Below are positions 5,568 through 21,210 of a DNA stretch of 64,000 nucleotides, one piece after another. The DNA comes from an uncultured Muribaculaceae bacterium (lineage in GTDB: Bacteria; Bacteroidota; Bacteroidia; Bacteroidales; Muribaculaceae). The notes below the pieces were generated by a model. It had not been told where the DNA came from. It was given only the letters and a program-made list of their open reading frames with translations, and ran no database searches. The position numbers and the translations under genes are program-made. Every line of letters begins with the position of its first letter. Within the stretch, counting starts at the first letter, position 1. The stretch lies in NCBI GenBank assembly GCA_947525975.1, contig CANNVE010000012.1, positions 1 through 64,000 on the forward strand. Reading direction: 5' to 3'.

Positions 5568-5984
5568 TCAAAAGGGTGGGATGGGGCGTCGGGCGGGGCA
5601 GCGGACTCGGGCCTGTCGCTTCAGGGAGGCGAGTGTTGAGAGCGCTTGCTCGTAGTGGATATCTGATGATTCATGGCCGCAGATCTGCAGCCATCGCGAT
5701 ATTATGTATCGGGCCAATGCGCCGCGCAGCAGATCTGCGTTTTCATTGCCGTCTGAGACAGTAAGGTTGACATCGTGCGCCGATGTGGACGCGGCTCCCG
5801 GCGAGAGACCTATGCCCGCGCATGCCCAGGCTTTTGCGTCGCGCCAAAGGATGTCGATAAGCTCCCTGTCGGCGTCGAGGGTGGGGAGGGTGTCGTACAT
5901 GCCGTTTTTGCCTCCGATGTAAGCCGTGATGATGTCCACTTCGGCTAATACGTCATCCCTGTTGATGGTGATAGTCGTTTTCAT
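5568..5984 (-). CDS. Hypothetical protein, last gene of phage module
   Basis: A 138-residue protein that I do not recognise. It starts MKTTITINRDDVLAEVDIITAYIGGK, is predicted soluble and mostly helical, and ends in a basic, proline-rich tail (RQARVRCPARRPIPPF). It lies 14 bp downstream of the DUF6808-like gene on the same strand and is the last gene of the phage-derived set, so it may be a small structural or connector protein; that is context only. The ATG at 5984 gives a compact start. It is followed by the 5482-5542 inverted repeat, which could end transcription. Confidence 0.6.
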   Translation of the reverse strand: MKTTITINRDDVLAEVDIITAYIGGKNGMYDTLPTLDADRELIDILWRDAKAWACAGIGLSPGAASTSAHDVNLTVSDGNENADLLRGALARYIISRWLQICGHESSDIHYEQALSTLASLKRQARVRCPARRPIPPF

Positions 5985-5998
5985 TATTCATTTTTTCA

Positions 5999-6532
5999 TT
6001 AAAAGCTTACGAAAGAGTATGTGATGCCGATGCCCACATAGGGCGAGAAGCCTCGCGGCCCGATGGCGTAGCCGGCGGTCACGCCCAGATGCCAATGCTT
6101 TGGCTTGGGCTGTATCGGGCGCGGCTGATAGATGCGTATGCTGTCGAGCGACGGCTGCCAGCCGCTCACCCATGCTGTGTAGGTGAGGCTGTCGGTGTAT
6201 TCTTTGCTGACTATCGGCACCTCGGCTTCGACGCTGTCAGGGATTTCAAGCATTGTTGAGTCGGCTGTCGGTGTCTTCGGCTTGCGGCTTGTGGCCGGCA
6301 AAGCCAATTTTGCCGTAACAGTCCTGACAGGCATGCTGTCTACAGGCATAGGCATGGTGATGCGGATGGTGTCAATGCGCGTTGTTTCCGGTGCAGGAGG
6401 CGGCTCTCTGCTGCACATCAGCGCGATGCCTACTAAGATAAGTGCGATTACGAGTACGGTCGTTAATGGTGCGGTCGTTAATGGTAGGGTCGTTCCTTGG
6501 AACGACCACTCTGCGTGTGGGCGTTTTTTCAT
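5999..6532 (-). CDS. Phage membrane protein, DUF6808-like
   Basis: A 177-residue protein with one N-terminal membrane helix (about residues 25-42, VLVIALILVGIALMC), a Pro/Thr-rich extracytoplasmic part, and a C-terminal segment (LGVTAGYAIGPRGFSPYVGIGITYSF) that looks like a short beta-hairpin. The pattern of repeated DSIRI/DTIRI motifs followed by such an end matches, from memory, the DUF6808 proteins of Bacteroidales phages; an Rz-like spanin role next to an amidase is possible. I chose the ATG at 6532 (MKKRPHAE); longer starts run through palindromic repeats. The palindrome at 6488-6507 is translated in frame as WSFQGTT at residues 9-15. Odd: the next residues LPLTTAPLTT suggest a local short duplication. 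Confidence 0.65.
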   Translation of the reverse strand: MKKRPHAEWSFQGTTLPLTTAPLTTVLVIALILVGIALMCSREPPPAPETTRIDTIRITMPMPVDSMPVRTVTAKLALPATSRKPKTPTADSTMLEIPDSVEAEVPIVSKEYTDSLTYTAWVSGWQPSLDSIRIYQPRPIQPKPKHWHLGVTAGYAIGPRGFSPYVGIGITYSFVSF

Positions 6533-6634
6533 AATAGTTAGAATTGGATTGTTGAGGTTTGGGAAGTGGTCGTTCCAAGGAACGACCGTACACATGGGAT
6601 GGGTTTCGTCAGGTGGTCGTTCCAAGGAACGACC
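6488..6634. repeat. 20-bp palindrome GGTCGTTCC..., three copies
   Basis: GGTCGTTCCTTGGAACGACC at 6488-6507 and its reverse complement (centre AA instead of TT) at 6568-6587 and 6615-6634. The first copy lies inside the N-terminal codons of the 5999-6532 gene, the second is between genes, and the third forms the last codons of the amidase gene. With the copies at 7198-7339 it makes a local family of six. Confidence 0.95.
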
Positions 6635-7241
6635 ATACTTGAAGCGACCGTACAATTGCGTTGATGTGGAGGTTGGCTATGGTCTCGATTCCGGCTTCGC
6701 TGAGCATGAAGGCGAGGTCGTCTTTGTTGTCCATAAAGAGATTTTCGGTGAGCACTGCCGGGCAGCGCGTATCACGGCAGATGGCGAGATTCTGCACCCA
6801 AAAGTCCTGACCGGGCATAGGCCTCCTCACGGTCAGCCCGAGCCGCTCGGCCTCCTTGGCGAGCAGCGAAGCCATTCGCTTTGAGTCTGCGCTCGCGTTA
6901 GGAGCCACAAATGCGCTCCAGCCGCGGGCCTGTCTCCACTCTCCCCGTCCGGCGGCATTGGCGTGTATGCTGATCAGCATACACGCGCCCTCCATAGCGT
7001 TGGCTCTCGCCGTGCGCTCACGCAGGGGCACATCCCGGTCTTCCGGCACCAGCAGCCCGGCGTCTAAGCCTTTGGCCCGAAGCCCCTCCGCGACACGGCG
7101 GGCCACCCTGCGGGTCCATTCCCATTCCAGCAGCCGCCCGTCCGGGCTCCGCTTTCCCGGCGTCTCTACCCCGTGACCGTTATCGATCAAATAGTACGGT
7201 CGTTCCTTGGAACGACCACTCTGCTTATGAGGATAATTCAT
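6609..7241 (-). CDS. N-acetylmuramoyl-L-alanine amidase (phage-type)
   Basis: A 210-residue zinc amidase (Amidase_3 fold) that cleaves the bond between muramic acid and the stem peptide, here probably a phage lysis enzyme. Zinc and catalytic residues are visible: His in YLIDNGHGVETPGKRSPDG (about 17-35), His in LISIHANAAG near 104, and the catalytic Glu in VLTENLFMDN near 170. There is no signal peptide, so export would need the neighbouring holin-like protein. I chose the ATG at 7241 (MNYPHKQ). Odd: palindromic repeats are translated at both ends, as GRSKERP at residues 9-15 and as WSFLGTT just before the stop. It lies 68 bp from the next gene, in a palindrome-rich gap. Confidence 0.85.
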   Translation of the reverse strand: MNYPHKQSGRSKERPYYLIDNGHGVETPGKRSPDGRLLEWEWTRRVARRVAEGLRAKGLDAGLLVPEDRDVPLRERTARANAMEGACMLISIHANAAGRGEWRQARGWSAFVAPNASADSKRMASLLAKEAERLGLTVRRPMPGQDFWVQNLAICRDTRCPAVLTENLFMDNKDDLAFMLSEAGIETIANLHINAIVRSLQVWSFLGTTT

Positions 7242-7339
7242 AGTAAAAAATAGATATAGGTTGGTGAAACGGTCGTTCCTTGGAACGACCGTACACATGG
7301 AAGGTTAGTTTCGTTAAGTGGTCGTTCCAAGGAACGACC
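7198..7339. repeat. 20-bp palindrome GGTCGTTCC..., three more copies
   Basis: Copies at 7198-7217, 7271-7290 (both TT-centred) and 7320-7339 (AA-centred). The first encodes the GRSKERP segment near the amidase N-terminus; the other two are in the gap between the holin-like gene and the amidase. Several are followed by the same flanking words (gtacacatgg, actctgc), so the repeated unit is longer than the palindrome itself. Confidence 0.95.
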
Positions 7340-7369
7340 CTACTATAGACCACTACTATACGACCACTG

Positions 7370-7552
7370 CTATTTGTATCGGTAGTCGATGCCGAATATG
7401 GCGCCGGCGAAGGTCATGATCTCGCCGAAGGCCACCAGCACCGACGAGTGTATCTCGCCGTTAGGAGGCACCACGAATCCCGCTATAAGCAGGCCGGCTC
7501 CTATCGCAATCAGGGCTACGGCACATTTCAATTGGGTGGCGTTTTTCTTCAT
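7370..7552 (-). CDS. Small two-helix membrane protein, holin-like
   Basis: A 60-residue protein with two hydrophobic helices (CAVALIAIGAGLLIAGFVV and VLVAFGEIMTFAGAIFGI) joined by a short polar loop and ending in DYRYK. Size, topology and position just upstream of the amidase fit a phage holin; no sequence family is recognised, so this is inference. The ATG at 7552 (MKKNATQLKC) is preferred over a TTG nine bases upstream. The capsid gene ends 16 bp before it on the same strand, so the two are probably cotranscribed. Confidence 0.65.
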   Translation of the reverse strand: MKKNATQLKCAVALIAIGAGLLIAGFVVPPNGEIHSSVLVAFGEIMTFAGAIFGIDYRYK

Positions 7553-7568
7553 CGCGGCCAATCATGAT

Positions 7569-9062
7569 TTAGATTTCGTTCCAATCGCTGCCGTCGTATT
7601 GCCAGGTGGAGCCGGGTGTGGCTCCGATGGGCAGGCAGCCCTTGATGAAGTAGTAGCTGCGGTCTTCGAGCAATTCGGCTCCTGCCGGCGCCTCGGCCTT
7701 GTCCCAAAGCACGAATGATTTCTCGGGGCTTGCCATGGCCTCGCCGTCGCCGTTGATCCAGATGTGGCAAGTGCCCTTCAGGGCCAGGGCGTCCCACACC
7801 ACCATGCCTCGGCGAGTGGCCTCCTCTCCCTCCACGCGGTCGGAGAATTCATGCTGCGTGGCGTAGGTGTAGTGCACAAGTCGGTCGTCGGCTATAAGCG
7901 CGCCGCTGTTGCTCCATCCCAGGGTGTCGAGCGTGGGCTCGCGCTTGATGTCGATGTCTCCAAATACGGTATGTATCCTCGTCACCGCCCATCCGAGCGG
8001 ATTGTGGGTGGCCATAACGTGCACCTCGGGGTGCGACGAGAAGTCGACATACTGCAGCTGCTCGAGCAGGTGCTTTCCGGCCAGCAGAGTGGCGCGCCGG
8101 GGCACATCCTCGCCTGTGTAGAAAAGTTTTGCCAGCGCCATCACCTTCTCTATCGTCCAGTTGCCGAGAGCAGTGGCCTCGCACTTGAATTGCCAGCGCA
8201 GTCCCTCGGTGAAGTACACGAGCTGGTCGCCGAGTTTAGGCACCTTCACCGACAGTTTGCCCTTGCGCCCGGCCCAGAGTGTGCGGTTGCCGGCGCGCTT
8301 GAAGTTCAGAATCGCTTGCTCTGCGATCACGCTTTGGGTGAAAGGCACATGCTTGCGCTGGGCGTCGAAATAGTCGCTCACTATCTGGTTCATGCCGCGC
8401 TTCTGCAGATAGATGGTCTCCGGCTTGGGCACGATCAGGTCAGGCTCCACTTCCTTCTGGGTCTCGTAGAGAGCGTTGGCCAGGATGCGTATGCGAGTGC
8501 CGGCAGGGATGGCAGGCGTGGTGCAGTAGAGGTCGGTGCGGCTCGTCTTGGGGCCATTGATCGCCCTCACTATCGGATTTCCCGAGGCCGAGTCAATGCC
8601 TGTGACGTAGAGCATGAGTTCCTTGCCGTAGGTGATCTCCTGGCCGTCCTCGGAGCATCCGTTCACGCCGCTCACCAGCAGCGTGTGGTTGACATGGGGT
8701 ATAGGCTGGTCATTGACCGAAAGCGGGAGCACGAACTGCGCGTTGGGGCCGGCCTTCACCTCGCCGAGGGTGTTGAATACAGAGCGCTGGCCATCGATCA
8801 TGTAATGCTCCACCTCGGGGCTGCTCACCTTCACCTTGCGGCTCTTGAGCATCATCGACATCAGCGCCGTATCCTCGCTCTGGAACATGAACAGCTGCTC
8901 GTCGATGTCAGGCTCCACAAGATTGCCCGGAGCGATGCCTCCGGTGGCAGCCGCCGCGTTGCTCACGGTGGAGGCTACGCCCGGCAGCTGGGTTTTGAGA
9001 TTGGCCGAGCCGTCGACGGCTGCGGGCTGTGTCCCGTTGGGGAATTTGAGTGTTTCTTCCAT
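7569..9062 (-). CDS. Probable phage major capsid protein
   Basis: A 497-residue soluble protein, probably the major capsid protein of the phage-derived module. This rests on position (portal, small acidic scaffold-like protein, then this gene), size, and a mixed alpha/beta sequence without signal peptide or membrane segment; I see no diagnostic motif. The N-terminal 50 residues are flexible and Ala/Gly-rich (AVDGSANLKTQLPG..., SNAAAATGGIAPGN). A middle part, YFDAQRKHVPFTQSVIAEQAILNFKRAGNRTLWAGRKG, looks helical and basic. The ATG at 9062 follows a separate promoter (9105-9149) that shares its upstream element with two other module genes. Reading frame intact. It could be another virion protein. 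Confidence 0.6.
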   Translation of the reverse strand: MEETLKFPNGTQPAAVDGSANLKTQLPGVASTVSNAAAATGGIAPGNLVEPDIDEQLFMFQSEDTALMSMMLKSRKVKVSSPEVEHYMIDGQRSVFNTLGEVKAGPNAQFVLPLSVNDQPIPHVNHTLLVSGVNGCSEDGQEITYGKELMLYVTGIDSASGNPIVRAINGPKTSRTDLYCTTPAIPAGTRIRILANALYETQKEVEPDLIVPKPETIYLQKRGMNQIVSDYFDAQRKHVPFTQSVIAEQAILNFKRAGNRTLWAGRKGKLSVKVPKLGDQLVYFTEGLRWQFKCEATALGNWTIEKVMALAKLFYTGEDVPRRATLLAGKHLLEQLQYVDFSSHPEVHVMATHNPLGWAVTRIHTVFGDIDIKREPTLDTLGWSNSGALIADDRLVHYTYATQHEFSDRVEGEEATRRGMVVWDALALKGTCHIWINGDGEAMASPEKSFVLWDKAEAPAGAELLEDRSYYFIKGCLPIGATPGSTWQYDGSDWNEI

Positions 9063-9104
9063 AGATTTTAAAGAAAAAGGTTAGTGTAAAAATTGATTGT
9101 ATCG

Positions 9105-9149
9105 CAAAATTAGTGTGCCTTTGCCCTCCGGCGCCGTTATCCTGAAAAA
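9105..9149 (-). promoter_or_regulatory. Promoter of capsid gene with shared upstream element
   Basis: Minus strand: TAATTTTG (TAnnTTTG box) at 9105-9112, then 21 nt, then TTTTTCAGGATAACGG at 9134-9149. The same upstream element at the same spacing precedes the scaffold-like and portal genes. The normal -33 TTTG is absent, so the conserved element may replace it as an activator or special sigma site. Confidence 0.7.
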
Positions 9150-9154
9150 GGCCT

Positions 9155-9661
9155 TCAGCCTCTGGCGATATCGAATATCGACGGAGGGGTGGCGGGAGCC
9201 GGAGCCGATGTGCCGAGCCTGGGCACGCCGTCGGTCCGATCCGCGGGCATCACCGATGCCCTTATGCGGGCGTTGCGCCCTCTCAATTCCGCCTCCTTCA
9301 CATCGCGGTCATAGTTCATGGCCTTGACCGCCATGCCGAAGGCGCGCTCCGAATAATTCCCCTCGCCTACAGCCGCAGCCACATCGTCGAGCCATTTGAA
9401 CGCCGCCTCAGCCAGTTCAGGCGATTGGCCAGACGCCAATGAGGCCCTTGACTGCGCGGCCTTTTGTTCGCGGAGGGCAGTTTGCTCCCGGCGTCCGCGC
9501 TCATCTTCGAGAAGGCGGGCATAGTCGGCGTAATCATCTATGATCTGCCCAAACACCGCGTTCTCGTCAGTCACGTCGATGTCAGGCCTCTCGGCGAGCA
9601 GCAGTCGCATCATGTCAGCGCGGTTGTCGCGCTGTCCCATAGCGTTTTCAGTGTTTTCCAT
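9155..9661 (-). CDS. Scaffold-like phage protein
   Basis: A 168-residue, charged, mostly helical protein with an acidic N-terminal half (TDENAVFGQIIDDYADYARLLEDERGRRE), a coiled-coil-like middle and a flexible Ala/Pro-rich end (SAPAPATPPSIFDIARG). Located between portal and capsid genes, it fits a scaffolding protein; I recognise no family, so the role is inferred. The ATG at 9661 has its own promoter (9691-9736). Its first 55 codons and promoter are duplicated at 13040-13279 with two base changes, and a diverged copy of its last 14 codons lies at 11260-11301. Its stop is 93 bp before the capsid gene, the gap being that gene's promoter. Confidence 0.6.
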   Translation of the reverse strand: MENTENAMGQRDNRADMMRLLLAERPDIDVTDENAVFGQIIDDYADYARLLEDERGRREQTALREQKAAQSRASLASGQSPELAEAAFKWLDDVAAAVGEGNYSERAFGMAVKAMNYDRDVKEAELRGRNARIRASVMPADRTDGVPRLGTSAPAPATPPSIFDIARG

Positions 9662-9736
9662 ATAAAAAGACAGTTAGTGTGTTTCCATCGCAAAGTTACT
9701 CCTCCCCGCCACCCCTTCCGCCGTTATCCTGAAAAA
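9497..9736. repeat. 240-bp direct repeat, left copy
   Basis: This 240-bp block (5' end plus promoter of the scaffold-like gene) recurs at 13040-13279 with two mismatches (c/t in the gatctgccc word, g/a in gtcaggcctc). It flanks 3.3 kb of AT-rich cargo. The copy here belongs to the intact gene. Confidence 0.95.
9691..9736 (-). promoter_or_regulatory. Promoter of scaffold-like gene with shared upstream element
   Basis: Minus strand: TAACTTTG at 9691-9698, 22 nt, then TTTTTCAGGATAACGG at 9721-9736. Same architecture as 9105-9149 and 19241-19285. It is also duplicated at 13234-13279. Confidence 0.7.
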
Positions 9737-9816
9737 ACACACGATAAACAAAACAATATCTCATCGTTAAATGTTACTTATAATAAGTAATACAAATCGT
9801 TTCAAATATAGATTTT

Positions 9817-10584
9817 ATGAGAAGAAAAGTAAGAATTTTGTCTATGATTGTTTTAATGGCTGTAGGAATCACAGTTAATGTCAGTTGTGTGGAACAGGAA
9901 GATTTCATGGATATTTCAAATGCGGTTTCATACGAACAGCTGTACAATGAATTAAGCAATGCTCCATCAGTTCTAATTGGCAAAAGTAGTCGTTCGGGTT
10001 CCGATGATGTAGGTTTTCCAACATTCGATGAAGAAACTTTAAATTACATGGCCTCACTTACTGTTGAGGAGATGGTGGCCCAAAGAGACAGTCTAATCAA
10101 TTCTTTCGGAAAAGATCTATTGGATAGTATTGAAGAATCTGAATATCAAAATTATGTTAGAATTTTTGATATTGTGGGAGGGCATGATGGTGTGGATGCA
10201 TTGAGTAGTTTTGCCATTAGGTATTTGGAATCTAAAGGAGGCTGGACAAATTTGAATAGATTGATGCCGTCTAATTTGTCAGACGAACAAGGTGAGATAT
10301 ATGTGGCAATAGCAGTCTTTGTTGATAGATTCTCTAGGCCAGTATATACTGTTATGACTGCACATGGATATTTGGAAGTGCAATCAAGGAGTAGTAAAAT
10401 ATGTGATATGGATGCTGCGGCAAAACTTGTTTTGGCTGGATTTGATATTGGAGTTGATGGAATGGTAGATGCCATGACTGGTGGAGCTGGTTTGGCTATG
10501 GCTCCGCTTGAAGGAATGGCTCTTGGTGTGGAACTCTATAGTATTTGGGTAGATTATGAGATCTGTAATGGTCGTTGGCATTGA
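9817..10584 (+). CDS. Putative lipoprotein, unknown function
   Basis: A 255-residue protein that I do not recognise. It has a signal peptide (residues 1-22) ending at Cys24 in NVSCVEQED, a likely though non-ideal lipobox, so it is probably a lipoprotein. The middle is acidic and helical. The C-terminal 60 residues include a Gly/Ala-rich hydrophobic pair of segments (LVLAGFDIGVDGMVDAMTGG, AGLAMAPLEGMALGVEL) that could insert in a membrane. It is clearly AT-richer than the phage genes around it and is on the opposite strand. A small membrane protein follows 23 bp later. A secreted toxin with its immunity protein is one possible reading, but nothing specific supports it. Confidence 0.6.
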   Translation: MRRKVRILSMIVLMAVGITVNVSCVEQEDFMDISNAVSYEQLYNELSNAPSVLIGKSSRSGSDDVGFPTFDEETLNYMASLTVEEMVAQRDSLINSFGKDLLDSIEESEYQNYVRIFDIVGGHDGVDALSSFAIRYLESKGGWTNLNRLMPSNLSDEQGEIYVAIAVFVDRFSRPVYTVMTAHGYLEVQSRSSKICDMDAAAKLVLAGFDIGVDGMVDAMTGGAGLAMAPLEGMALGVELYSIWVDYEICNGRWH

Positions 10585-10607
10585 ACCTTCGTAAAGTATA
10601 TCTGATT

Positions 10608-10898
10608 ATGAAAATGATAAAGAATCCCAGCCTTATAAAAATAAGCATTGTTTTGATACCAATTCCACTGCTTATGATATATACGGTGGTGGTTAAGGCA
10701 TTTCCTGTTTGGGCACTTGTTGTCGCGATTGTGTCGCTGGTATCGTATTTGAGTATTGCCTCATATTATTGTATCAAGCAAAAATGTTATGGTCAACTTA
10801 TTCTGAATGGTGTAATGACAATTTGGTTAATAGCGATGTTTATCCTGCGTCGTTATTACATGAACGAGTTACTTGAATATTACAAAAATCTTTCATAA
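10608..10898 (+). CDS. Small three-helix membrane protein
   Basis: A 96-residue membrane protein with about three helices (ISIVLIPIPLLMIYTVVV, VWALVVAIVSLVSYLSIASYY, LILNGVMTIWLIAMFILRRYY) and a short polar tail. No family is recognised. I chose the ATG at 10608 (MKMIKNPS); a TTG at 10575 would overlap the upstream lipoprotein gene. AT-rich like its neighbour and most likely in the same transcript. Size and topology would suit an immunity protein or a partner of the lipoprotein; this is speculation from context. Confidence 0.55.
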   Translation: MKMIKNPSLIKISIVLIPIPLLMIYTVVVKAFPVWALVVAIVSLVSYLSIASYYCIKQKCYGQLILNGVMTIWLIAMFILRRYYMNELLEYYKNLS

Positions 10899-10962
10899 AC
10901 CATTCTAAAAAACTCCAGTGACCTAAAGACTGGAGCACATAAGCAACATGAACTTAGATGCA

Positions 10963-11113
10963 GGTGGAGGTGCGTTTCTCCGAAACGCACGGGCCAGTGT
11001 TTTGGAAATCGCCAGTGGCACGAGAACACGGATTAAGACGGATTACCACGGATTACACGGATTTTTTATCTTTATAATCCGTGTGATCCGTGTTTTCCGT
11101 GAAAATCCGTGTT
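10963..11113. repeat. 151-bp repeat with hairpin and ATCCGTG words, copy 1
   Basis: Nearly identical to 13281-13431 (one mismatch). It opens with a short hairpin, gtgcgtttc-tcc-gaaacgcac (10970-10990), also found at 13288-13308, 19377-19397 and 21386-21406, and closes with a run of acggatt/aatccgtg words on both strands. The wider gap 10899-11363 contains only this repeat and a phage gene remnant. Confidence 0.92.
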
Positions 11114-11259
11114 ATTGGGCCAAGGTTGGCGTCTTCGGGCGATGGAATGTGCTACCACCCTCACACCTGCTCACCGCGGGCTTATCGGCGTCAAAAGAGC
11201 ACATATTTGTAAAAATAAATCCGTCTTAATCCGTGTTCCCATGCCAAAGCCTGCGTTAA

Positions 11260-11353
11260 GCCCCTGGCAATGTCAAATTTCAGTGGAGGTGTGGCGGGAG
11301 CCGTCACCGAGCAGGGGCAGAGCCGCCACCCTCTCCACTTCTATCCTGAAAAA
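11260..11353 (-). pseudogene. Remnant of a second, diverged scaffold-like gene
   Basis: Read on the minus strand, 11260-11301 encodes APATPPLKFDIARG, matching the scaffold-like protein's end APATPPSIFDIARG at 12 of 14 positions but diverged in DNA; the stop is lost. About 40 nt further, 11341-11353 carries ctatcctgaaaaa, a copy of the module's upstream promoter element. Most of the gene body is missing. This suggests a second related module or allele was once present here. Confidence 0.6.
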
Positions 11354-11363
11354 ACTGGTATTT

Positions 11364-11783
11364 TCAATTGATATTGACTATGTATGAATTTTGTAAGACT
11401 TCTTCTAACGACTTCCCGTCGATTTTGACTTCATCCCAAACCAAATGGTTCTCGTCGACCCAGCATAGAATCTCTCCATCTCGGAAATCGTGTGTGTCTT
11501 GGTCTCCGAGTTCAAGATAGATATATTTGGCATCCGGGACTTTCTTGAACCGGAAAACCGGTGTTGGGCACATTTCCGAATGTATGCCATAAAAATTGCC
11601 ATCTCCGAGGTAGTAAAACATCATGTTTCTTCCGAGATCTTCAATGTAGTAGTTGAAGATCTTTTTTGATACGGAAGACCTGGCTTCGCGTTTCTCTATC
11701 TCACGCCATCCTATTTGGTCAGACAGCAAATGGATTCCCTCCCAAAAGAAATCCGGAATGATTACAGAAGTCTTCTCAGTCAT
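11364..11783 (-). CDS. Hypothetical protein, possible immunity protein
   Basis: A 139-residue soluble, acidic protein that I cannot assign. The body has alternating hydrophobic strands (MMFYYLGDGNFYGIHSEM, KYIYLELGDQDTHDF, ILCWVDENHLVWDEVKIDG). It is the last gene of a three-gene, AT-rich, minus-strand cluster and overlaps the end of the upstream gene by 8 bp, indicating translational coupling. Small acidic last genes in such clusters are often immunity proteins; that is an analogy only. ATG at 11783. Confidence 0.6.
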   Translation of the reverse strand: MTEKTSVIIPDFFWEGIHLLSDQIGWREIEKREARSSVSKKIFNYYIEDLGRNMMFYYLGDGNFYGIHSEMCPTPVFRFKKVPDAKYIYLELGDQDTHDFRDGEILCWVDENHLVWDEVKIDGKSLEEVLQNSYIVNIN

Positions 11784-12267
11784 TTTTTTGCTCTTTATTG
11801 TATTTCTCTATCTTTTCTATTAACGAATGGTATTTTGTTGGTATTGGATGATGGTTGTTGTTGTCATGGGATTTGCGTCCAATTGTTCCATCCCCTTTTA
11901 TGTCAGAAAACTTATGGTAATGAGAACTTTTTTCAGTATTGGAATATGGAATGAAATTACCATTTTTGTCGAATTTTAAATCTATTTGTGCCACGCATCT
12001 GTGACGTTCATATATTCCGATTGATTTTATTTCAAACCGTATTTTGTCGAAATGATCTTTGGGGACACTTGCGCATAGGTATATAGGTGAATCTGAATTT
12101 GAGTTCATCGGGACTTTAACTTGATGAGGACTTTGTTTTTGGACAATTATTTTATGTCCGTCTATTCGGTTCCCATTTTCAAAGTGTGTACGACTCATAA
12201 GAGGTATAACTCCAAGAGTTTTATTATATGTACTATTACCTCCCATTTGCAAATCTGTTGTTATCAT
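11776..12267 (-). CDS. Hypothetical protein with His/Asn-rich C-terminus
   Basis: A 163-residue protein of unknown function. The N-terminal half looks like a beta-rich domain (KIIVQKQSPHQVKVPM, IYLCASVPKDHFDKIRFEIKSIGIY); the C-terminal part is His/Asn-rich (SSHYHKFSDIKGDG, GRKSHDNNNHHPIPTKYH) and could bind metal or form a nuclease-like active site. The start is uncertain: ATG at 12267 overlaps the upstream gene by 32 bp, ATG at 12246 by 11 bp. It overlaps the downstream gene by 8 bp. A C-terminal toxin domain with downstream immunity protein is possible but unproven. Confidence 0.55.
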   Translation of the reverse strand: MITTDLQMGGNSTYNKTLGVIPLMSRTHFENGNRIDGHKIIVQKQSPHQVKVPMNSNSDSPIYLCASVPKDHFDKIRFEIKSIGIYERHRCVAQIDLKFDKNGNFIPYSNTEKSSHYHKFSDIKGDGTIGRKSHDNNNHHPIPTKYHSLIEKIEKYNKEQKND

Positions 12268-12910
12268 TCTTGAAATATATACATTTTTTAGTATTTTCTC
12301 CAGGTATTATCGGACCATAGTGAATGATTTTAATTGGTTTTAATTCTGAATTGATTTTTTCAACAGCCTTAAGCCACGTCTTGCTATCACCATGCGATAT
12401 GACACCAACGCTATTTATTGCTATGATAGAATGTTTGGGCCAGCCTTCAATCCAATAGTCTTCCCAATATTCATTTGGGAAAGAAATGTTTGGTATGACA
12501 TTGTGTCCTCTTGACTGAAGCCAAGCGGCCCATAATTTATTAAGGAATGATGAGTAAATCTTTTGTGGACGCCCCATTTCTGTCGTTAAAGAGAAATCTA
12601 AAGAAATAGATGAATTGAACCGGCTTAGCTTTTTCTCTGTAACAAATGGTTTATTGAATAATTGACGGATGCGATTGTCGTTAAAATAGAAGTGTGGAGC
12701 TGTGTTTTCTGGAGTGTATGGGGTTGTTCTATGTAACCCGATGATATCCAGGGGTGGATCTCCTGTATATGGTGCAACAATTGGCATTTCGTTGTTAGAA
12801 GTTAAAGTGGTGGAGAGTGTCATAAATAATAAGGTTCCATCATTTGGATCTTTAGTTATATTTTTAGACTTAACGTCGTTCATCATATTGAAATCACCAA
12901 TAGTAATCAT
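12236..12910 (-). CDS. DUF4417-like protein
   Basis: A 224-residue protein resembling DUF4417 proteins, which occur in bacteria and phages and have no known activity. Features I associate with that family: a short N-terminal part, FNDNRIRQLFNKP near residues 76-88, SLDFSLTTEMGRPQKIYSSFLNKLWAAWLQ in the middle, and a Trp-rich segment followed by SIIAINSVGVISHGD, then IIHYGP near the end. ATG at 12910. First gene of the three-gene cluster 11364-12910; it is AT-rich and foreign-looking beside the GC-rich phage genes. The assignment is from memory and should be checked by profile search. Confidence 0.6.
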   Translation of the reverse strand: MITIGDFNMMNDVKSKNITKDPNDGTLLFMTLSTTLTSNNEMPIVAPYTGDPPLDIIGLHRTTPYTPENTAPHFYFNDNRIRQLFNKPFVTEKKLSRFNSSISLDFSLTTEMGRPQKIYSSFLNKLWAAWLQSRGHNVIPNISFPNEYWEDYWIEGWPKHSIIAINSVGVISHGDSKTWLKAVEKINSELKPIKIIHYGPIIPGENTKKCIYFKNDNNRFANGR

Positions 12911-13018
12911 AAAGATATCGGTTTTGCGAAGTTAGTAATTTTTTTTGTTTATATGGATGTAATTTAGGTTTATATACGATAATGTGAAAATAAGGTTTTC
13001 TACCCTTTAACAGAATGG

Positions 13019-13204
13019 TCATTTTCGTAAACAGTCATGGCGCTCATCTTCGAGAAGGCGGGCATAGTCGGCGTAATCATCTATGATTTGCCCAAACACC
13101 GCGTTCTCGTCAGTCACGTCGATGTCAAGCCTCTCGGCGAGCAGCAGTCGCATCATGTCAGCGCGGTTGTCGCGCTGTCCCATAGCGTTTTCAGTGTTTT
13201 CCAT
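13019..13204 (-). pseudogene. Truncated copy of scaffold-like gene
   Basis: An open frame of 61 codons whose first 55 match the scaffold-like protein (one substitution, P32 to L) and then runs into unrelated sequence (HDCLRK, stop). It is the duplicated 5' end of the intact gene at 9155-9661, with its promoter still in place, so a short peptide could be made. It marks the right edge of the cargo insertion. Confidence 0.85.
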
Positions 13205-13279
13205 ATAAAAAGACAGTTAGTGTGTTTCCATCGCAAAGTTACTCCTCCCCGCCACCCCTTCCGCCGTTATCCTGAAAAA
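13040..13279. repeat. 240-bp direct repeat, right copy
   Basis: Second copy of 9497-9736, offset 3543 bp, two mismatches. It starts inside codon 55 of the scaffold-like gene and ends at the last A of the upstream promoter element. Confidence 0.95.
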
Positions 13280-13280
13280 T

Positions 13281-13431
13281 GGTGGAGGTGCGTTTCTCCG
13301 AAACGCACGGGCCAGTGTTTTGGAAATCGCCAGTGGCACGAGAACACGGATTAAGACGGATTACCACGGATTACACGGATTTTTTATCTTTATAATCCGT
13401 GTAATCCGTGTTTTCCGTGAAAATCCGTGTT
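13281..13431. repeat. 151-bp repeat with hairpin and ATCCGTG words, copy 2
   Basis: Matches 10963-11113 at 150 of 151 positions. It directly abuts the right 240-bp repeat. A degenerate GACAGGAG unit follows at 13463-13488. The gap 13205-13777 otherwise holds only the sigma-operon promoter and a possible leader. Confidence 0.92.
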
Positions 13432-13564
13432 CCCTTGCCAAAATCTACGACAAAATAAAGTTCCTGTTCCTACTGTGCCCCTGTCTCGAAGTTTAGCAGT
13501 CAGGGGTTGGTCTTTGTCAATGTCTGATAAAAGCGAATAAGAGAAATGATCAAGAGACCTACTA

Positions 13565-13595
13565 TTGTGCATATCAGTAATTTTCGTTAACTTTG
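13565..13595 (+). promoter_or_regulatory. Candidate promoter of ECF sigma operon
   Basis: TTG at 13565-13567 and TAACTTTG at 13588-13595, with 20 nt between, fit the Bacteroidetes consensus. It would leave a leader of about 175 nt before the sigma gene. No clear repeat or autoregulatory site was recognised in that leader. Confidence 0.45.
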
Positions 13596-13777
13596 CCTTG
13601 CGAATCAGGAGAATCAGAGCAAAGGACATAAGAGCAAACCTTAAATGTCCAATATTCACAGTAGAACAAAGTGTAATGACCGCATTTTTGAATAGAGGTG
13701 TCTTTTGAGGTGTGAATTTTTGGAATTTTTCCGATTGTCAGGTTAGGTTTTTCACAAGATAGGTGTCTTATCTGTGT

Positions 13778-14263
13778 ATGACGAAGATTAATGACATAGA
13801 ACAGCTTTTCAAAACCCATTACACGGCGATGCACCGCCTTGCGATGCTGATACTGCGAGATGAGGATATGGCGCGAGACATTGTGCACGATGTCTTCGAG
13901 TCGCTGCTCAACGCTGGCCTGACCGATGTGTCAGCGCAGTATCTGCTTCGTGCTGTGCGAAACCGATGTCTAAACTATCTTCGCGGCCTCTCCACGCGTG
14001 ACCGCATAGTGGAATTTTACGCGGTTGACGAGCAGGAAATTGCCGATGAAGAGTGGCCCGATGATGAGACAATCGCCAAAATTCATTTCACTGTGGCTAA
14101 TGACCTTACAGATGCTTGCCGACGGGTGGTAGAATTGCGTTTCGCTGACGGGAAGAGTTATAAGGAGATTGCTTCCACATTGAGCATCAGCGAAGTTGCT
14201 GTCTATAAGCATTTGCGTCATGCGATAGATGTCTTACGCTCAAAACTATCTCAAAATGGATAA
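13778..14263 (+). CDS. ECF-type RNA polymerase sigma factor (FecI-like)
   Basis: A 161-residue sigma-70 family factor of the extracytoplasmic-function group. Region 2 is visible as AMHRLAMLILRDEDMARDIVHDVFESLL (about 14-41), and region 4 as VVELRFADGKSYKEIASTLSISEVAVYKHLRHAIDVLRSKL near the end, the helix-turn-helix that binds the -35 element. I chose the ATG at 13778 (MTKINDIEQLF). The anti-sigma gene overlaps its stop by 8 bp (ATGGATAA), so the pair is translationally coupled. It should direct transcription of the receptor gene downstream in response to a surface signal. Confidence 0.93.
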   Translation: MTKINDIEQLFKTHYTAMHRLAMLILRDEDMARDIVHDVFESLLNAGLTDVSAQYLLRAVRNRCLNYLRGLSTRDRIVEFYAVDEQEIADEEWPDDETIAKIHFTVANDLTDACRRVVELRFADGKSYKEIASTLSISEVAVYKHLRHAIDVLRSKLSQNG

Positions 14264-14906
14264 AATAGACCGACTGATTGACGCTATCGATCATCCTGAC
14301 CGCTACACTGGAAAGGAGATTGAGGCTCTGCTCGCCGATCCCGAGGTCAAGGAGGTTTATGACCTGCTTGACAAGACCAAGGCTGTCCTTACGCCAATTT
14401 CCACTTCCGATGTCGAAGCCGAATGGGAGGCATTCAAGATTGCCCATCCGGCTACACAGCGCCGCACTATGCGCATATTAAATCTATTCACCCGCAACAT
14501 GGCGGCGAGCATCGCCATCGGCATAGCCTCTCTTGCGGCTGTCGCTGCCGTGGTTGGGGTAAGCGCGAACTACGTTCTTGACAGAAAGGCAGATGCCCGG
14601 GCTACAGAGATTGTCGAGGTTGCGAAAGAAAATATTGTTGTCAACGATACAATAGCCGTCTCAGAAGAAACATCGGCAATCGCCCCCCAAACCATAGTCT
14701 TTGACAACGAACAGCTGGAAGATATTGCGAATCGTATAGCGGAATATTATGGCCATGAAGTTGTTTTCTCAACAGAAGCGCCTAAGTCTCTGCGTCTTTA
14801 TTTCCGCTGGAATCAGGCTCAGACTCTCGACGAAGTTATTGAAAGCCTCAATAATTTCGAGCAGATCCACATCTCCGTCAAGGGTGAAACTATTAAAATC
14901 GACTGA
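14256..14906 (+). CDS. FecR-like anti-sigma factor with DUF4974-type domain
   Basis: A 216-residue inner-membrane protein that would hold the ECF sigma factor inactive until the receptor signals. The cytoplasmic N-terminal part (1-75) binds sigma; one membrane helix follows (AASIAIGIASLAAVAAVVGVSANYV, about 80-104). The periplasmic C-terminus ends in a DUF4974/STN-like domain (QLEDIANRIAEYYGHEVVF...LDEVIESLNNFEQIHISVKGETIKI). The classic middle FecR domain is very short here, which is unusual for the family. The ATG at 14256 overlaps the sigma gene. The receptor gene starts 4 bp after its stop. Confidence 0.85.
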   Translation: MDKIDRLIDAIDHPDRYTGKEIEALLADPEVKEVYDLLDKTKAVLTPISTSDVEAEWEAFKIAHPATQRRTMRILNLFTRNMAASIAIGIASLAAVAAVVGVSANYVLDRKADARATEIVEVAKENIVVNDTIAVSEETSAIAPQTIVFDNEQLEDIANRIAEYYGHEVVFSTEAPKSLRLYFRWNQAQTLDEVIESLNNFEQIHISVKGETIKID

Positions 14907-14910
14907 CATC

Positions 14911-17454
14911 ATGGCTAAAGTCTTTATGCTTATCTGTGTCATGTCAGCCTTTGTCATGACAAAGGCCGAGAGTTTCTCCTATCGCTTTGACTCCACTCCG
15001 TTGCCCAAAGCAATTCAGCTGATCATGGAGAACCACCCTGACCTCAACATCAACTTCATATACAATGAACTTGAAAACTACAGCACAAGCGCGACAGTAG
15101 ATGCCGACAATCCCGGCGATGCGCTCCGCCAGGCAATCGACTTGAATCCCGTAACCGTCCTCAAAGCCAAAAACACATATTATGTCGAAGCTTTGCAGCA
15201 CGGGAAATACATCTACACCGGTCGGGCAATGGGCTCGGACAGCGAGCCTGTTGTCGCTGCCACTGTCATGCTTCTCACGCCTAAAGATTCAACTGTATTG
15301 ACCTTCGGAATAGCCGATGCGGATGGTCGATTCAGAATCCCCTGTGACCAAACCAACGTTATTGCCAAATTCTCCTGTATTGGATACAAAACTACATATC
15401 ATCTGTGCGCAGCTTTCAACATCGGTACAATCATCATGCCCGAAAATGCAGTCAAATTGAGTGAAGTTAAGGTAGAGGCCGACAATGCTCGTTTATATTC
15501 TGACCGGTCGATATACATGCCCACTGCTCGACAGAAAAATGCTGCGGCTGATGCGGTTGCCCTTTTGAGCCAAATGGCGATGCCACAACTTGATGTTGAT
15601 CCGGCCAACAAATCTGTAAAGACAATCAGTGGAGAGTCTGTAGCCATTTATATAGATTATGTATCAGCCTCCCGGCAAGATCTCGCAGGCATGAAGACAA
15701 CGGATGTCAAGAAGATTGAATATTTGCTCTATCCAAAAGACCCCCGTTTTCACGGAGCGAATTATGTTATCAATTTTATAATGCAGAAATATAAGTATGG
15801 CGGTTATACCAAAGTTAGTGCTTCCCAAAAATTTGGTGTGAATAACACTGATGCGTCTGTCTATTCAAAATTCTCATACAAGGATATGACATTCGACATA
15901 TATGCTGATGAAACATTCATGAAAGACCGACATTTTGGCACTGCGTCTACAGAGCGGTTCATATTGCCTGACTTGTATGGACGCGGTGAGAAATCATTGG
16001 AAAGAATCTCTACGCCAATAGCCTCAAAATATCGGAACAATGAAAATAATGTGACTTTTCGCGCTTTATATACAACTGAGAAGGTGCAAGTTTCCAATAC
16101 TTTGTCTCTTAACAATACTTCAACGCCTCAAAAAGACTACAAAACAGCGGTCTCTTATTCAGACGCGATTGTGCCTTCAACAACGACAAGCACTGTCACA
16201 GCGGACCATAATCTTTCATTGAATTACAAAAATGAAACTTATATCGGATTCAATGAAAATGTAGGGGCATACATAGAGGCTGTATATGAATATGGGCATA
16301 ATAAGTCTGAATCAAACTACAGTCAAGGTGAGATTCACATTGTTAATAATGCGATAGAGTATTCTCATTGCGGACGACTTACGCCAAGCATTGTTTGGAA
16401 TCCTGACAAGCATAATAGTGTAATGCCATATCTGCATGGTGAGTACACTTCTTATTCTCTTGATTATTATGGATCATCGCCCTCAAAGCAGAATTATGAT
16501 GTATTGGGTTTTGTCGGTGGTGTGAGATATACATATACCAGGGATAAATGGAGCGCAGGCACTCAATTCGGATGGACCTACGCCAGTGCAAATTTAACTG
16601 GAAACAAAATCGAGGATAATTATCCAATGGGCAATATCTTCGCGACATTCTCACCAAATAACCACAATCAATTTGAGATAAGGTATGCGTTCACAAAACA
16701 AGTGCCTGAAACTTACCAAAAGAGCCCTAATATGCTTCAACAGGACGAACTGATGTGGTATACCGGTACGCCAGGTCTCAAAAACAGTTGGAATAGTTAT
16801 GTCCACGTCGTCTACACATGGATTCCGAATAATAGATGGCAGTTTGCGGCCACCGGTAAAATGTTTATGGTTGACGATAGGGTTGTGACTCGTTATTCGC
16901 CGACGGGCCCGAATGGCACTATGCTCAGGCTATATGTAAATGATGGTAGTTTTCAGAGCAGTTCAATAGGAGTTAAGGGAACGGCAAAATTCTTTGACGG
17001 CAAATTGGTTGCCACTCTGCGTCCTGAGATGTGGTTCCGCCGGACAACAGGAGAATATGCTTTGACCCACAACGAGCTTACGTGTGTCGCGCAGTTGACG
17101 TGGTATTTCGGCAATTTTTATGTTTTTGGATGGTATGTGACTCCAAGCACATACCCCAATGAAGAGTCAGGTATCAAAGAGCGCACCCCATCTCGCTATC
17201 AAATGGAGATTGGATATGGCAAAGGCCCTTGGAGAGCATCTGCTACGGCTTATAATTTCCTGCGGTCAAGTTGGATGTCAAGCCAAGAAACTTTGTCAAG
17301 CAAATATTATGGGTTTGATCGCAACCTCTATAGCCCTGATTTGCACATGAACTTTCAAGTATCTATCTCTTATACATTCGGATATGGCAAGAAAGTGCAG
17401 CGTGGTGATGAAGTTGGCGGTGCGGGGATCGGCTCATCTGCTATTTTGAAATAA
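14911..17454 (+). CDS. Outer-membrane beta-barrel receptor with STN domain
   Basis: An 847-residue outer-membrane protein. Signal peptide (MAKVFMLICVMSAFVMTKAES), then a secretin/TonB N-terminal (STN) domain at about 20-100 that would contact the anti-sigma factor, a carboxypeptidase-like regulatory domain (YIYTGRAMGSDSEPVVAATVMLL, about 105-190), a plug-like region (ADAVALLSQMAMPQLDVDP...GESVAIYIDYV), and a long C-terminal beta-barrel ending SSAILK, an ending I recall from related Bacteroidetes barrels. I chose the ATG at 14911. The three-gene operon is a transenvelope signalling set; the substrate is unknown. No SusD partner follows, so it is not a standard polysaccharide locus. A hairpin at 17474-17514 ends the unit. 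Confidence 0.85.
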   Translation: MAKVFMLICVMSAFVMTKAESFSYRFDSTPLPKAIQLIMENHPDLNINFIYNELENYSTSATVDADNPGDALRQAIDLNPVTVLKAKNTYYVEALQHGKYIYTGRAMGSDSEPVVAATVMLLTPKDSTVLTFGIADADGRFRIPCDQTNVIAKFSCIGYKTTYHLCAAFNIGTIIMPENAVKLSEVKVEADNARLYSDRSIYMPTARQKNAAADAVALLSQMAMPQLDVDPANKSVKTISGESVAIYIDYVSASRQDLAGMKTTDVKKIEYLLYPKDPRFHGANYVINFIMQKYKYGGYTKVSASQKFGVNNTDASVYSKFSYKDMTFDIYADETFMKDRHFGTASTERFILPDLYGRGEKSLERISTPIASKYRNNENNVTFRALYTTEKVQVSNTLSLNNTSTPQKDYKTAVSYSDAIVPSTTTSTVTADHNLSLNYKNETYIGFNENVGAYIEAVYEYGHNKSESNYSQGEIHIVNNAIEYSHCGRLTPSIVWNPDKHNSVMPYLHGEYTSYSLDYYGSSPSKQNYDVLGFVGGVRYTYTRDKWSAGTQFGWTYASANLTGNKIEDNYPMGNIFATFSPNNHNQFEIRYAFTKQVPETYQKSPNMLQQDELMWYTGTPGLKNSWNSYVHVVYTWIPNNRWQFAATGKMFMVDDRVVTRYSPTGPNGTMLRLYVNDGSFQSSSIGVKGTAKFFDGKLVATLRPEMWFRRTTGEYALTHNELTCVAQLTWYFGNFYVFGWYVTPSTYPNEESGIKERTPSRYQMEIGYGKGPWRASATAYNFLRSSWMSSQETLSSKYYGFDRNLYSPDLHMNFQVSISYTFGYGKKVQRGDEVGGAGIGSSAILK

Positions 17455-17473
17455 AAAACAGTTTATCATACAA

Positions 17474-17514
17474 GAGCATCCGGCTTTCGGCGTGATGTCG
17501 GTGGCCGGATGTTC
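17474..17514. terminator. Hairpin between receptor and portal genes
   Basis: gagcatccggc (17474-17484) pairs with gccggatgttc (17504-17514) with one G-U pair and a 19-nt loop. It lies between converging genes and could serve both. U-tracts are weak. Confidence 0.55.
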
Positions 17515-17529
17515 TTCATGCGTCATGGG

Positions 17530-19227
17530 CTATGCCTGCGGCTTGCGTCTGCGGGCGGCGAGCAGGGCGTCGGCAAATGGGAATTCGCCCGCGCTCAAGA
17601 GTTCTTCGAGCGTGATCTGCCCCGATTTCCATATTTCAAGCAGCAGGGCGTTGGTGCTTTGACGGCTCGCCGATGTGGCTATGTCAGAAGTCACGCTCAA
17701 GTCAAGCGCCACATCGCTCGCATTGCCGGCATCATCAGCGAAGCCGTGCGCCTGCGAGCCGGTGATGGCCTCCACGGTGCGCGCGTCATAGAATTGGCGC
17801 ATATTGCGCACATCGATGCCGGCGGCGTCGCGCACAAACTCGGCGAACGTGTTGAGCACGTCCATCAGCGCCATCGAGGCATTGTGCGTCTGCTGGCCGT
17901 ATAGCTCGGCGCTCATGGCGCTGTTGGTCAGATTGCCCTGCAAGGCGCCGTTCACACCCGAAATGTCCTCAAAAAATTTCAGTTGCGTCTCAAGCAGGCG
18001 CGTGATGCCGGCATGGTCGACACTGCCCTGCACTTGGCGCGGAGAATCGCCGCGCACCGACGGCGAGTATACTATCACACCGTTGTGGCGGCTCCAGGCG
18101 TCGACCATCGTCTCTGCCGAGCCCCCGTCGGGGATGCAGTCCTCCGGCACCAGCAGCACGCCCTTGGCGCTCGCCCTCAGCATCCAGTCATGGAGCGTGA
18201 CAAGGCGGTTGGTGTATCGCTGCTGGTCGATCACATCGCCCACAAAAGAGTGTATCTCGCCGTCGATTAGCGGATAGGCCTTCACAGCGTAGGGATGAGA
18301 GCCGTGGGCGTATGGCGTGTCGCCCGATGCCAGCACATGGCCAAGCGGCGAGAGGAAATAATATCGCCAGCGCTCTTCCATCACCCATCTTGCCGTCACA
18401 TTCTCCCGGACGATAGCCTCATATTCCTCGCGACTCAGCCGGTAGGCCTCTCCGCGCGCCTCGTCATGGCATAGGTAATGCCCAGCCGTCTCGCGTCGCC
18501 ACACCTCCACCACGCGGCACATCCCCGGGCGCGACGCCGTCAGGAAGTCCATGCCCGGAGCACGGCCATATCCGAAATCCTCCCATGCGCGTGAGATGCC
18601 CTCGCGCGACGATGCCTGGCCGTAGATCTCACGCAGGGCGTCGCAGTCGGCAGGCGATGAGGCGAATTGGTGGCATACGTCGTCGAAGCTCACATCGTGC
18701 ACCTCGCCGATGTAGGCGCAGTCCCAGCCTCTGACATCGTGCATGGTCGTGTCTATGAAGAAATTGTCGGCGCTGACCATATCGGTCCAGCAGTCGGTGC
18801 GGCCTCCGCGCGTGCCGTACCATTTGCGGTGCACGGCGAGCCCGCTGATCAGGAATTCCTCAAGAGTGCGGGCGTAGATCGCCGACAGGCGGTTGAGTTC
18901 GCCATTGTATTTCAGCAGCGAGGTCATGGTGTCGGCCAGAGGCTTCTCCGCCGGGTCGCGCGCCAGGCATTTGGGCGCGTTGGCCTGCGCCGAGTATACG
19001 CCGATCACATTGCGCACCAATCGGCGTATCAGATTATTCTTCAGCGGCTCCGATCCGTTTTCGCTTATGTGCTCCTCCTCGGTGATGCGGCGTCCGTCCA
19101 CAGTGATGCGGTCGCCCCATTGGTCGCCATAATTATATCGCTTGTTTCGCTCGCGCTCGCGGCGGAAGCGGGCCATGCCGTCATGGCATCTCTGCGCCAA
19201 CAGCAAAAGTTCAAAATTCTTCTCCAT
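17530..19227 (-). CDS. Phage portal protein (P22-like)
   Basis: A 565-residue protein that looks like a phage portal, the ring at the capsid vertex through which DNA enters. Family-like features: NKRYNYGDQW near residues 29-38, NNLIRRLVRNVIGVYSAQANAPKCLARD (about 65-92), a mixed alpha/beta body with YTNRLVTLHDWMLRASAKGVLLVPED, and the conserved turn FFEDISGVNGALQGNLTNSAMSAELYGQQ near 430. No signal peptide. ATG at 19227; its own promoter is at 19241-19285. The frame is intact. No terminase gene is nearby, which is the striking point: a portal without its DNA-packaging motor. Its first nine codons and promoter are duplicated at 21211-21416. Confidence 0.75.
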   Translation of the reverse strand: MEKNFELLLLAQRCHDGMARFRRERERNKRYNYGDQWGDRITVDGRRITEEEHISENGSEPLKNNLIRRLVRNVIGVYSAQANAPKCLARDPAEKPLADTMTSLLKYNGELNRLSAIYARTLEEFLISGLAVHRKWYGTRGGRTDCWTDMVSADNFFIDTTMHDVRGWDCAYIGEVHDVSFDDVCHQFASSPADCDALREIYGQASSREGISRAWEDFGYGRAPGMDFLTASRPGMCRVVEVWRRETAGHYLCHDEARGEAYRLSREEYEAIVRENVTARWVMEERWRYYFLSPLGHVLASGDTPYAHGSHPYAVKAYPLIDGEIHSFVGDVIDQQRYTNRLVTLHDWMLRASAKGVLLVPEDCIPDGGSAETMVDAWSRHNGVIVYSPSVRGDSPRQVQGSVDHAGITRLLETQLKFFEDISGVNGALQGNLTNSAMSAELYGQQTHNASMALMDVLNTFAEFVRDAAGIDVRNMRQFYDARTVEAITGSQAHGFADDAGNASDVALDLSVTSDIATSASRQSTNALLLEIWKSGQITLEELLSAGEFPFADALLAARRRKPQA

Positions 19228-21019: not shown

Positions 21020-21210
21020 TTTTTTGTGTCTTTTGATGGTGCAAAGATAATAAAATTTTGCACACGACATTACCAAATCGTGTATTTTTATCGTACATTT
21101 GGAATCGCCGTGTGTATCAGATGCACATTTATCTATCCTAATAGTATTTCGATATGTAGGGCGAAATCATCAATTTTGTGTTGACGAAGGTAAATGTCGA
21201 TGACTGTAGT

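Follow-up and report, generated by a model that had tools for sequence, protein, structure and literature searches.

The stretch analysed here (the window) is the first 64,000 bases of one contig (G000:C12:1-64000) of a 2.9-Mb assembly in 56 contigs from a member of the Muribaculaceae, a major family of the mouse gut, and it holds, between host genes, a module of phage-type genes for a portal, a scaffold-like protein, a capsid protein and lysis (Table 1). The original prediction, made from the sequence alone, described these genes as intact and bordered by host genes, and offered a domesticated capsid, a satellite that borrows another phage's packaging motor, or a capsid for other cargo. All the frames that it named (portal, scaffold-like, capsid, holin-like, amidase, DUF6808 and one gene of unassigned role) are open, and the two host genes that it placed at the borders are there: pyrG lies on one side, with YidC, and the leucine-rich-repeat gene (BspA type) on the other, with an AAA ATPase gene and a tricorn-like protease. 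The genes do not form a single neat operon, since 7.9 kb of other DNA, including a plus-strand operon, a DUF4417 gene and partial duplications, separates the scaffold from the portal. Among the window frames scanned with Pfam and PHROG, none proved to encode a terminase, an integrase or a replication protein; the prediction's statement that such genes are missing thus stands for those frames and fails for the cell, which encodes a terminase large subunit (TerL) on another contig, C26.

Table 1. Features of the module and of the DNA inserted in it or adjoining it. Gene numbers (gp) are those of Bacteroides phage BS-TP4; G036 is the sister species.
Feature	Position	Strand	Evidence
gp23-like small gene, 138 residues	5568..5984	-	blastp BS-TP4 gp23 3e-10; phrog_35482 1e-4
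DUF6808 protein, BS-TP4 gp22 homologue	5999..6655	-	Pfam DUF6808 3.2e-25; gp22 33% over 174 residues, 1e-21
N-acetylmuramoyl-L-alanine amidase (endolysin)	6609..7298	-	Amidase_3 4.6e-28; phrog_435 endolysin 9e-40
Putative holin-like protein, 63 residues	7370..7561	-	77% identity in G036
Predicted major capsid protein, 497 residues	7569..9062	-	Sequence profiles; 80% identity in G036
Putative scaffold, 168 residues	9155..9661	-	BS-TP4 gp10 homologue; 67% in G036 (blastp)
139-residue gene, role unassigned	11364..11783	-	69% identity in G036
DUF4417 protein, inserted AT-rich stretch	12236..12910	-	Pfam DUF4417 4e-23; phrog_8680 6e-32
Truncated copy of the scaffold 5' end, 55 residues, 98% identical	13019..13204	-	240-nt repeat at 99%
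Inserted host-type operon: ECF-sigma-like, FecR-like and outer-membrane CarboxypepD_reg proteins	13763..17454	+	Translations
Portal protein, 565 residues	17530..19227	-	P22_portal 3.3e-39; phrog_156 2e-73; 77% in G036, same locus
AAA ATPase gene upstream of the portal	19598..21076	-	Pfam ATPase_2 3e-15

The profile search proposed with the original prediction returned matches for both portal and capsid. The putative scaffold is a homologue of BS-TP4 gp10, its scaffolding role being suggested by its place upstream of the capsid gene. The capsid candidate matched SU10_MCP slightly below the Pfam cut-off (8.5e-5, 22.6 bits against 24.1), and its own profile matched the solved phage capsid chain 9in6 at 0.0013. 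While this assignment is weak when the protein is taken alone, it gains strength through the profiles of its relatives: a profile of the window capsid protein with 26 viral homologues (A4) aligned with one of 25 capsids from a diverged, older set of the same genes described below (A1) at an hhalign probability of 100 over 402 columns, and A1 matched 9in6 at 1.5e-9. This agreement of sequence profiles is the basis for the predicted capsid role, and the protein may have an SU10/HK97-type fold.

The portal protein is 51%, 51% and 39% identical to those of the Bacteroides temperate phages BS-TP4, BKO1-TP3 and BF1-TP2 (PQ571277, PQ571269 and PQ571263), the only three records that it matched in the phage collection; relatives are also encoded at 190 viral contig loci, of which 80 were kept. 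By portal these phages and the window module fall in the same phage family, and BS-TP4 has the same gene order, running from a giant protein (gp3) and the portal (gp4), through gp7 and gp9 on the other strand, to the scaffold (gp10), capsid (gp11), gp12, gp13, the 2645-residue gp14 and a reverse transcriptase, and on to the endolysin (gp21), gp22, gp23-25 and gp26; the window genes are collinear with it from gp4 to gp23. BS-TP4 gp7 (L348 20340-22436) is annotated as a 'tail spike' but hits the TerL profile and falls with the TerL proteins in the tree. The phages are 64-68 kb long, and BS-TP4 encodes an integrase, replication functions, a reverse transcriptase and giant proteins, whereas none of these was found in the window module, nor were gp12, gp13, gp14 or TerL. 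The window capsid is nearest to those of viral contigs such as L264 (65% identity) and is about 22% identical to the BS-TP4 capsid, a comparison made via L307, whose portal is identical; the donor was therefore a relative of BS-TP4 and not BS-TP4 itself. Contig C24 of the same genome (L045 42-11093) bears a 3482-residue protein adjoining a portal fragment, which probably remain from another phage belonging to the same family.

Further genes of this kind lie elsewhere in G000, with homologues of TerL and gp9 on C26, of gp26 on C21 and of gp13 on C49, so that the set (the newer set below) occupies at least four loci on four contigs (C12, C26, C21 and C49). It is carried by five species (G000, G036, G015, G006 and G013), all of which have TerL, gp26 and gp13 homologues. 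Beside the loci on C26, C21 and C49, all ten genes scanned belong to host-type Pfam families (serpin, penicillinase-repressor, BlaR-like, TonB plug, MatE, EamA, Na:Ala symporter and others) and none to a phage-type family, and the frames scanned in the stretches around the loci yielded neither an integrase nor a replication gene. The possibility that C26 adjoins C21 in G000 was considered and rejected, the contigs having no end overlap and G036 having other neighbours beside gp26. The host genes next to the capsid, gp13 and gp26 loci are shared with G036, at 62-98% identity, the capsid and gp26 loci being comparable on one side, where the contig does not end; the dispersal is therefore older than the split between G000 and G036. 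The TerL motifs KARQWGxSx, ESTANG and D-E-D, the first of which we take to be of Walker A type and the last to be three acidic residues of the nuclease, are kept in all 23 aligned rows, and these intact packaging and nuclease motifs suggest a competent terminase large subunit.

The comparison with relatives at the same locus that the original prediction had called for found portal and capsid orthologues in G036 (Table 1), and dN/dS (the ratio of nonsynonymous to synonymous substitution rates, by NG86, for the pairs G000-G036 and G006-G013) was about 0.02-0.18, indicating purifying selection. For G000-G036 it was 0.12 for the portal (dN 0.169, dS 1.46), 0.10 for the capsid (0.135, 1.36), 0.18 for the scaffold (0.326, 1.80), 0.08 for TerL (0.184, 2.20), 0.17 for gp13 (0.327, 1.95) and 0.16 for gp26 (0.395, 2.49; a partial gene at a contig end), against 0.05-0.11 for three host neighbours (0.137/1.33, 0.078/1.58 and 0.158/1.47); the 139-residue gene had a dN of 0.259 with dS not estimable. 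The pair G006-G013 gave 0.02 for the capsid (dN 0.0065, dS 0.35) and 0.06 for the portal (0.030, 0.48). In G015 a contig break divides the capsid gene, the larger piece of which is open over window residues 146-439 and ends at an earlier stop than the window capsid.

In the portal tree (62 rows, quick method; support in all trees is SH-aLRT) the five carriers form one clade (100) within the phages, divided into (G006,G013) and (G015,(G000,G036)), and in the capsid tree they group at 99, again within the phages. In the host YidC tree of 30 genomes a branch supported at 94 has the five on one side, divided as before, with G015 as a long branch. The agreement of the portal, capsid and YidC trees is best explained by a single capture and vertical descent thereafter: the ancestor of the five species would have acquired the capsid and portal genes once, from a temperate relative of BS-TP4. 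The shared locus in G036, the purifying selection and the grouping of carriers in portal, capsid and host trees support the first option of the original prediction, and the set is very probably maintained in domesticated form.

A second, diverged version of the genes was found in the 37 genomes of the genus that were examined, older and newer copies being told apart by identity and length. It lies in two cassettes, one of scaffold, capsid, gp13-like and portal genes, often followed by gp9- and gp23-like genes, and one of gp26-like and TerL genes, and many of its genes overlap by a few bases. Eight families are common to both sets (scaffold, capsid, gp13, portal, gp9, TerL, gp23 and gp26), the hhalign probability between older and newer versions being 87 for gp23 and at least 96 for the other small ones and gp26. 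The older scaffold is a gene of about 129 residues upstream of the capsid gene (probability 96.3), present at 69 of 109 loci, with some genomes counted twice; a gene of about 187 residues in the capsid-portal interval was also considered for this role and rejected, being gp13-like by profile comparison (99.9). The gp26-like proteins are 19-33% identical to the first row of their alignment (A2). Against solved structures the phage gp26 profile found no relative and the older gp26 gave a chance-level value (0.037), and since no solved relative was found a role as nozzle or propeller would be a guess.

Capsid or portal of the older set is present in 28 of the 37 genomes, TerL in 28 and gp26 in 29, and every one of the 32 genomes outside the window's group has at least one older component, four of them (G007, G024, G026 and G029) having TerL and gp26 without capsid or portal. 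No older component was found in the five genomes of the window's group, one of which (G015) is 78% complete. At 71 of 81 capsid-portal loci (some genomes counted twice) the portal gene follows the capsid gene on one strand at 300-1500 bases, and at 7 others it lies about 3.3 kb before it. TerL and capsid share a contig in 4 of the 21 genus genomes having both, at 9, 16, 49 and about 7 kb, the last being G001, whose TerL is split over two contigs; in two genomes of another genus, g46, TerL, capsid and gp26 lie within about 12-14 kb. Around the older set of G019, five of the eight neighbours scanned are host enzymes and similar proteins and three had no match. In Mantel tests on the older set, distances correlated between capsid and portal (r 0.71), TerL and portal (0.41) and TerL and capsid (0.33, p 0.028), and YidC correlated with portal (0.62) and capsid (0.44).

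Of the 247 Muribaculaceae genomes, profiles found TerL of either version in 227 and capsid in 217, each in 29 of 30 genera. Because the TerL profile includes four newer-type rows, some of the 227 are phage copies; the same may hold for ten weak capsid matches (E 2e-4 to 6e-15), which all come from a single genus and are included in the 217. In the order, TerL occurs in 15 of 198 genomes, 12 of them in seven other families, and no other gene of the set was found in 7 of the 10 such stretches that were read. Viral contigs hold the older capsid at 7 loci, 5 of them strong, a count that is not like for like with the 190 portal loci, and a profile scan of them confirmed no relative of the older gp26. 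One genome of another family, G057, has portal, capsid, TerL and gp26 homologues on four contigs (L101, L051, L425 and L426), so that the dispersed state may extend beyond the Muribaculaceae. Another, G388, carries on C32 (L431 4070-14476) a compact gp26-portal-TerL/gp9-scaffold-capsid-gp13 stretch, and has a further TerL on C6 without another set gene nearby.

Given these findings, we favour, with moderate confidence, the proposal that the window locus is part of a domesticated phage acting as a gene transfer agent. Such an agent would be expected to have its head, portal and terminase genes fixed in the host lineage by vertical descent, and to be dispersed without replication or integration genes alongside; for head and portal the trees point to the former, TerL being present in all five carriers with a less clear tree, and the latter was found in the stretches around the loci. 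From genes that are present, intact, dispersed, held at loci shared with a sister species and under purifying selection we infer a particle that would assemble, package DNA at random, be released and deliver genes. The capsid protein would assemble on the scaffold around the portal, TerL and its gp9-like partner would pump in DNA by headful cutting, gp13 and the gp26-like protein would close and tail the head, and the holin-like, amidase and DUF6808 genes would free the particles by lysis; the eight families kept would thus be the head, the DNA motor and the parts that, by gene order, close and tail the head. With the genes lying apart among genes of host type, and neither integrase nor replication genes seen in the scanned frames next to them, such a particle would be unable to take up the whole set together, and its cargo would be mainly host DNA. 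The likeliest product would be a short-tailed particle filled with host DNA. Our best reading of the two versions is that the newer set occupies the place of an older form of these eight genes, one found across the Muribaculaceae. On a bolder reading, an ancient Bacteroidales gene transfer agent, present in the Muribaculaceae and several related families, was lost in the window's clade, and a second one, derived from an independent infection by a temperate phage and retaining those eight genes, took over from it, a history that we regard with about equal belief and doubt.

Several observations weigh against this proposal. The genes for gp14 (2645 residues), gp12 and the giant gp3 were not found in the loci read, so the tail may be incomplete, and lysis genes are known for the newer set only. 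That 20 of 247 family genomes lack TerL, and that G031 has a broken portal, a truncated gp26 and no TerL, which is what decay looks like, indicates that the system can be lost. For the older set the YidC-TerL correlation is weak (Mantel r 0.28, p 0.014), and for the newer set the dS values of 1.4-2.5 are near saturation. On the side that can be compared, G000 and G036 show no synteny around TerL. In the TerL tree a branch of 100 separates the five carriers from 19 phage and prophage rows, a group test that asks for the five on one side and leaves phage rows uncounted; the long branch of the older set joins among the five, and when the tree is rooted towards that set G006 and G013 stand beside phages (97). 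TerL therefore does not show the five as a clade, a misfit that could reflect a misplaced root or a separate source of TerL.

The same gene evidence would suit a bacteriocin-like or PBSX-like particle that packages host DNA or none and kills or signals without gene delivery, and the gp26-like proteins evolve fast, as a receptor- or tail-facing part might. On the other hand, a DNA-free particle would not need TerL, which is found in 227 of the 247 family genomes and whose motifs are kept throughout the aligned rows, and we consider this explanation unlikely. A slowly decaying prophage remnant, retained by chance, would account for the absence of most BS-TP4 genes from the locus, the insertions and partial duplications between portal and scaffold, the separate portal fragment beside the 3482-residue protein on C24, and the TerL tree. 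It is hard to reconcile with the low dN/dS values, with portal and capsid frames that are open in the copies readable whole, and with three loci common to two species and a grouping that matches the host tree, which together make it improbable. A complete temperate prophage would have integrase, replication and packaging genes in one unit, and here TerL lies on another contig.

The original prediction had also raised the possibility of a satellite using another phage's motor. A satellite of the phage-inducible chromosomal island (PICI) type would be a mobile island with an integrase that makes a capsid and depends on a helper phage, and capsid and portal genes that have no replication or tail genes next to them give that look. 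This suggestion loses its support because G000 has its own TerL of the same kind with intact motifs, as do the four other carriers, and because no integrase was found in the module; the parts, moreover, lie at separate host loci, three of them common to two species, and a satellite now seems scarcely credible. The last option of the original prediction, a capsid for other cargo, here a container for protein or RNA, is not directly contradicted by anything in the capsid taken alone. To our knowledge, encapsulins and similar compartments lack both a portal and a packaging motor, whereas portal, TerL and gp26 homologues are retained in both sets, and since the DNA motor has been kept as well, cargo of another kind is very unlikely.

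If the gene transfer agent proposal is correct, an agent common to most Muribaculaceae would be a standing route of DNA exchange in the gut, and cultured members of the family may exist. Two captures converging on the same eight genes, the old set being absent from the five genomes with the new one, would make it possible to ask directly which functions of a phage such a particle requires and whether selection acts on hosts to retain one. RcGTA and other alphaproteobacterial agents, with which the present set may be compared, likewise consist of packaging genes of phage origin that are passed on vertically, although they have a different capsid and tail type and one main cluster. PBSX-like defective prophages are also host-fixed particle genes that package host DNA, but PBSX is one contiguous prophage with a contractile tail.

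The closest description that we know from the gut is FpGTA of Faecalibacterium prausnitzii, which has a possible TerS and genes for TerL, portal, scaffold and capsid in a first operon of ten genes, with tail and lysis genes in a second, about 125 kb away in one strain (PMC12946183). FpGTA is most likely podovirus-like and packages short fragments of host DNA, its particles, proteomics and DNA having been demonstrated (PMC12946183). The Muribaculaceae set resembles it in belonging to a gut bacterium and in having TerL, portal, scaffold, capsid and lysis genes, a likeness of description; it differs in that FpGTA has a Firmicute host and two operons, while the newer set has at least four loci and the older set is family-wide, and in that FpGTA particles have been seen, whereas the Muribaculaceae set is known from its genes. 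Dispersed operons, as in the Muribaculaceae set, are described there for RcGTA and alphaproteobacterial agents (PMC12946183). The same source states that a limited number of gene transfer agents, mostly of Alphaproteobacteria, have been studied in detail and that lateral transduction has been reported in Bacteroidota, and its main text contains no word beginning 'Muribacul' (PMC12946183). Among titles and abstract openings, a coverage that leaves out most subscription papers and preprints, we found no report of a gene transfer agent in Muribaculaceae or Bacteroidales, and no paper with the BS-TP4 phage names.

Of the smaller window genes, the gp23-like one has relatives in L047, L048 and L094, and the holin-like one in G006 and G013. 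The 139-residue gene, which in G036 lies between the scaffold and capsid genes, had no match in a Pfam and PHROG family search. DNA homologous to the amidase gene (295 bases at 71%) is found at an extreme contig end in G036. The position of the DUF6808 gene suggests a spanin, and the TTG given as its start is probably upstream of the real one. At 6465-7353, around the amidase and DUF6808 genes, there are several near-identical palindromes based on GGTCGTTCCAAGGAACGACC, and because they overlap the annotated starts of both, those starts may be wrong. In the inserted operon the first genes read, from their translations, as ECF (extracytoplasmic function) sigma and FecR, and the CarboxypepD_reg match (Pfam, 0.002) is below the cut-off.

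Adjacent direct repeats at 99% identity (9497-9736/13040-13279 and 10963-11113/13281-13431) put the truncated scaffold 5' end and nearby DNA beside the DUF4417 stretch, and are a recent segmental duplication inside the module. A perfect direct repeat of 206 bp (19202-19407/21211-21416) holds the portal start and flanks the AAA ATPase gene, as if that gene had been inserted via duplication of the portal upstream region. Intergenic repeats of the CACGGATTACACGGATT type occur at 11016-11255 and 13334-13449, and similar ones at the end of contig C26 (L085 end).

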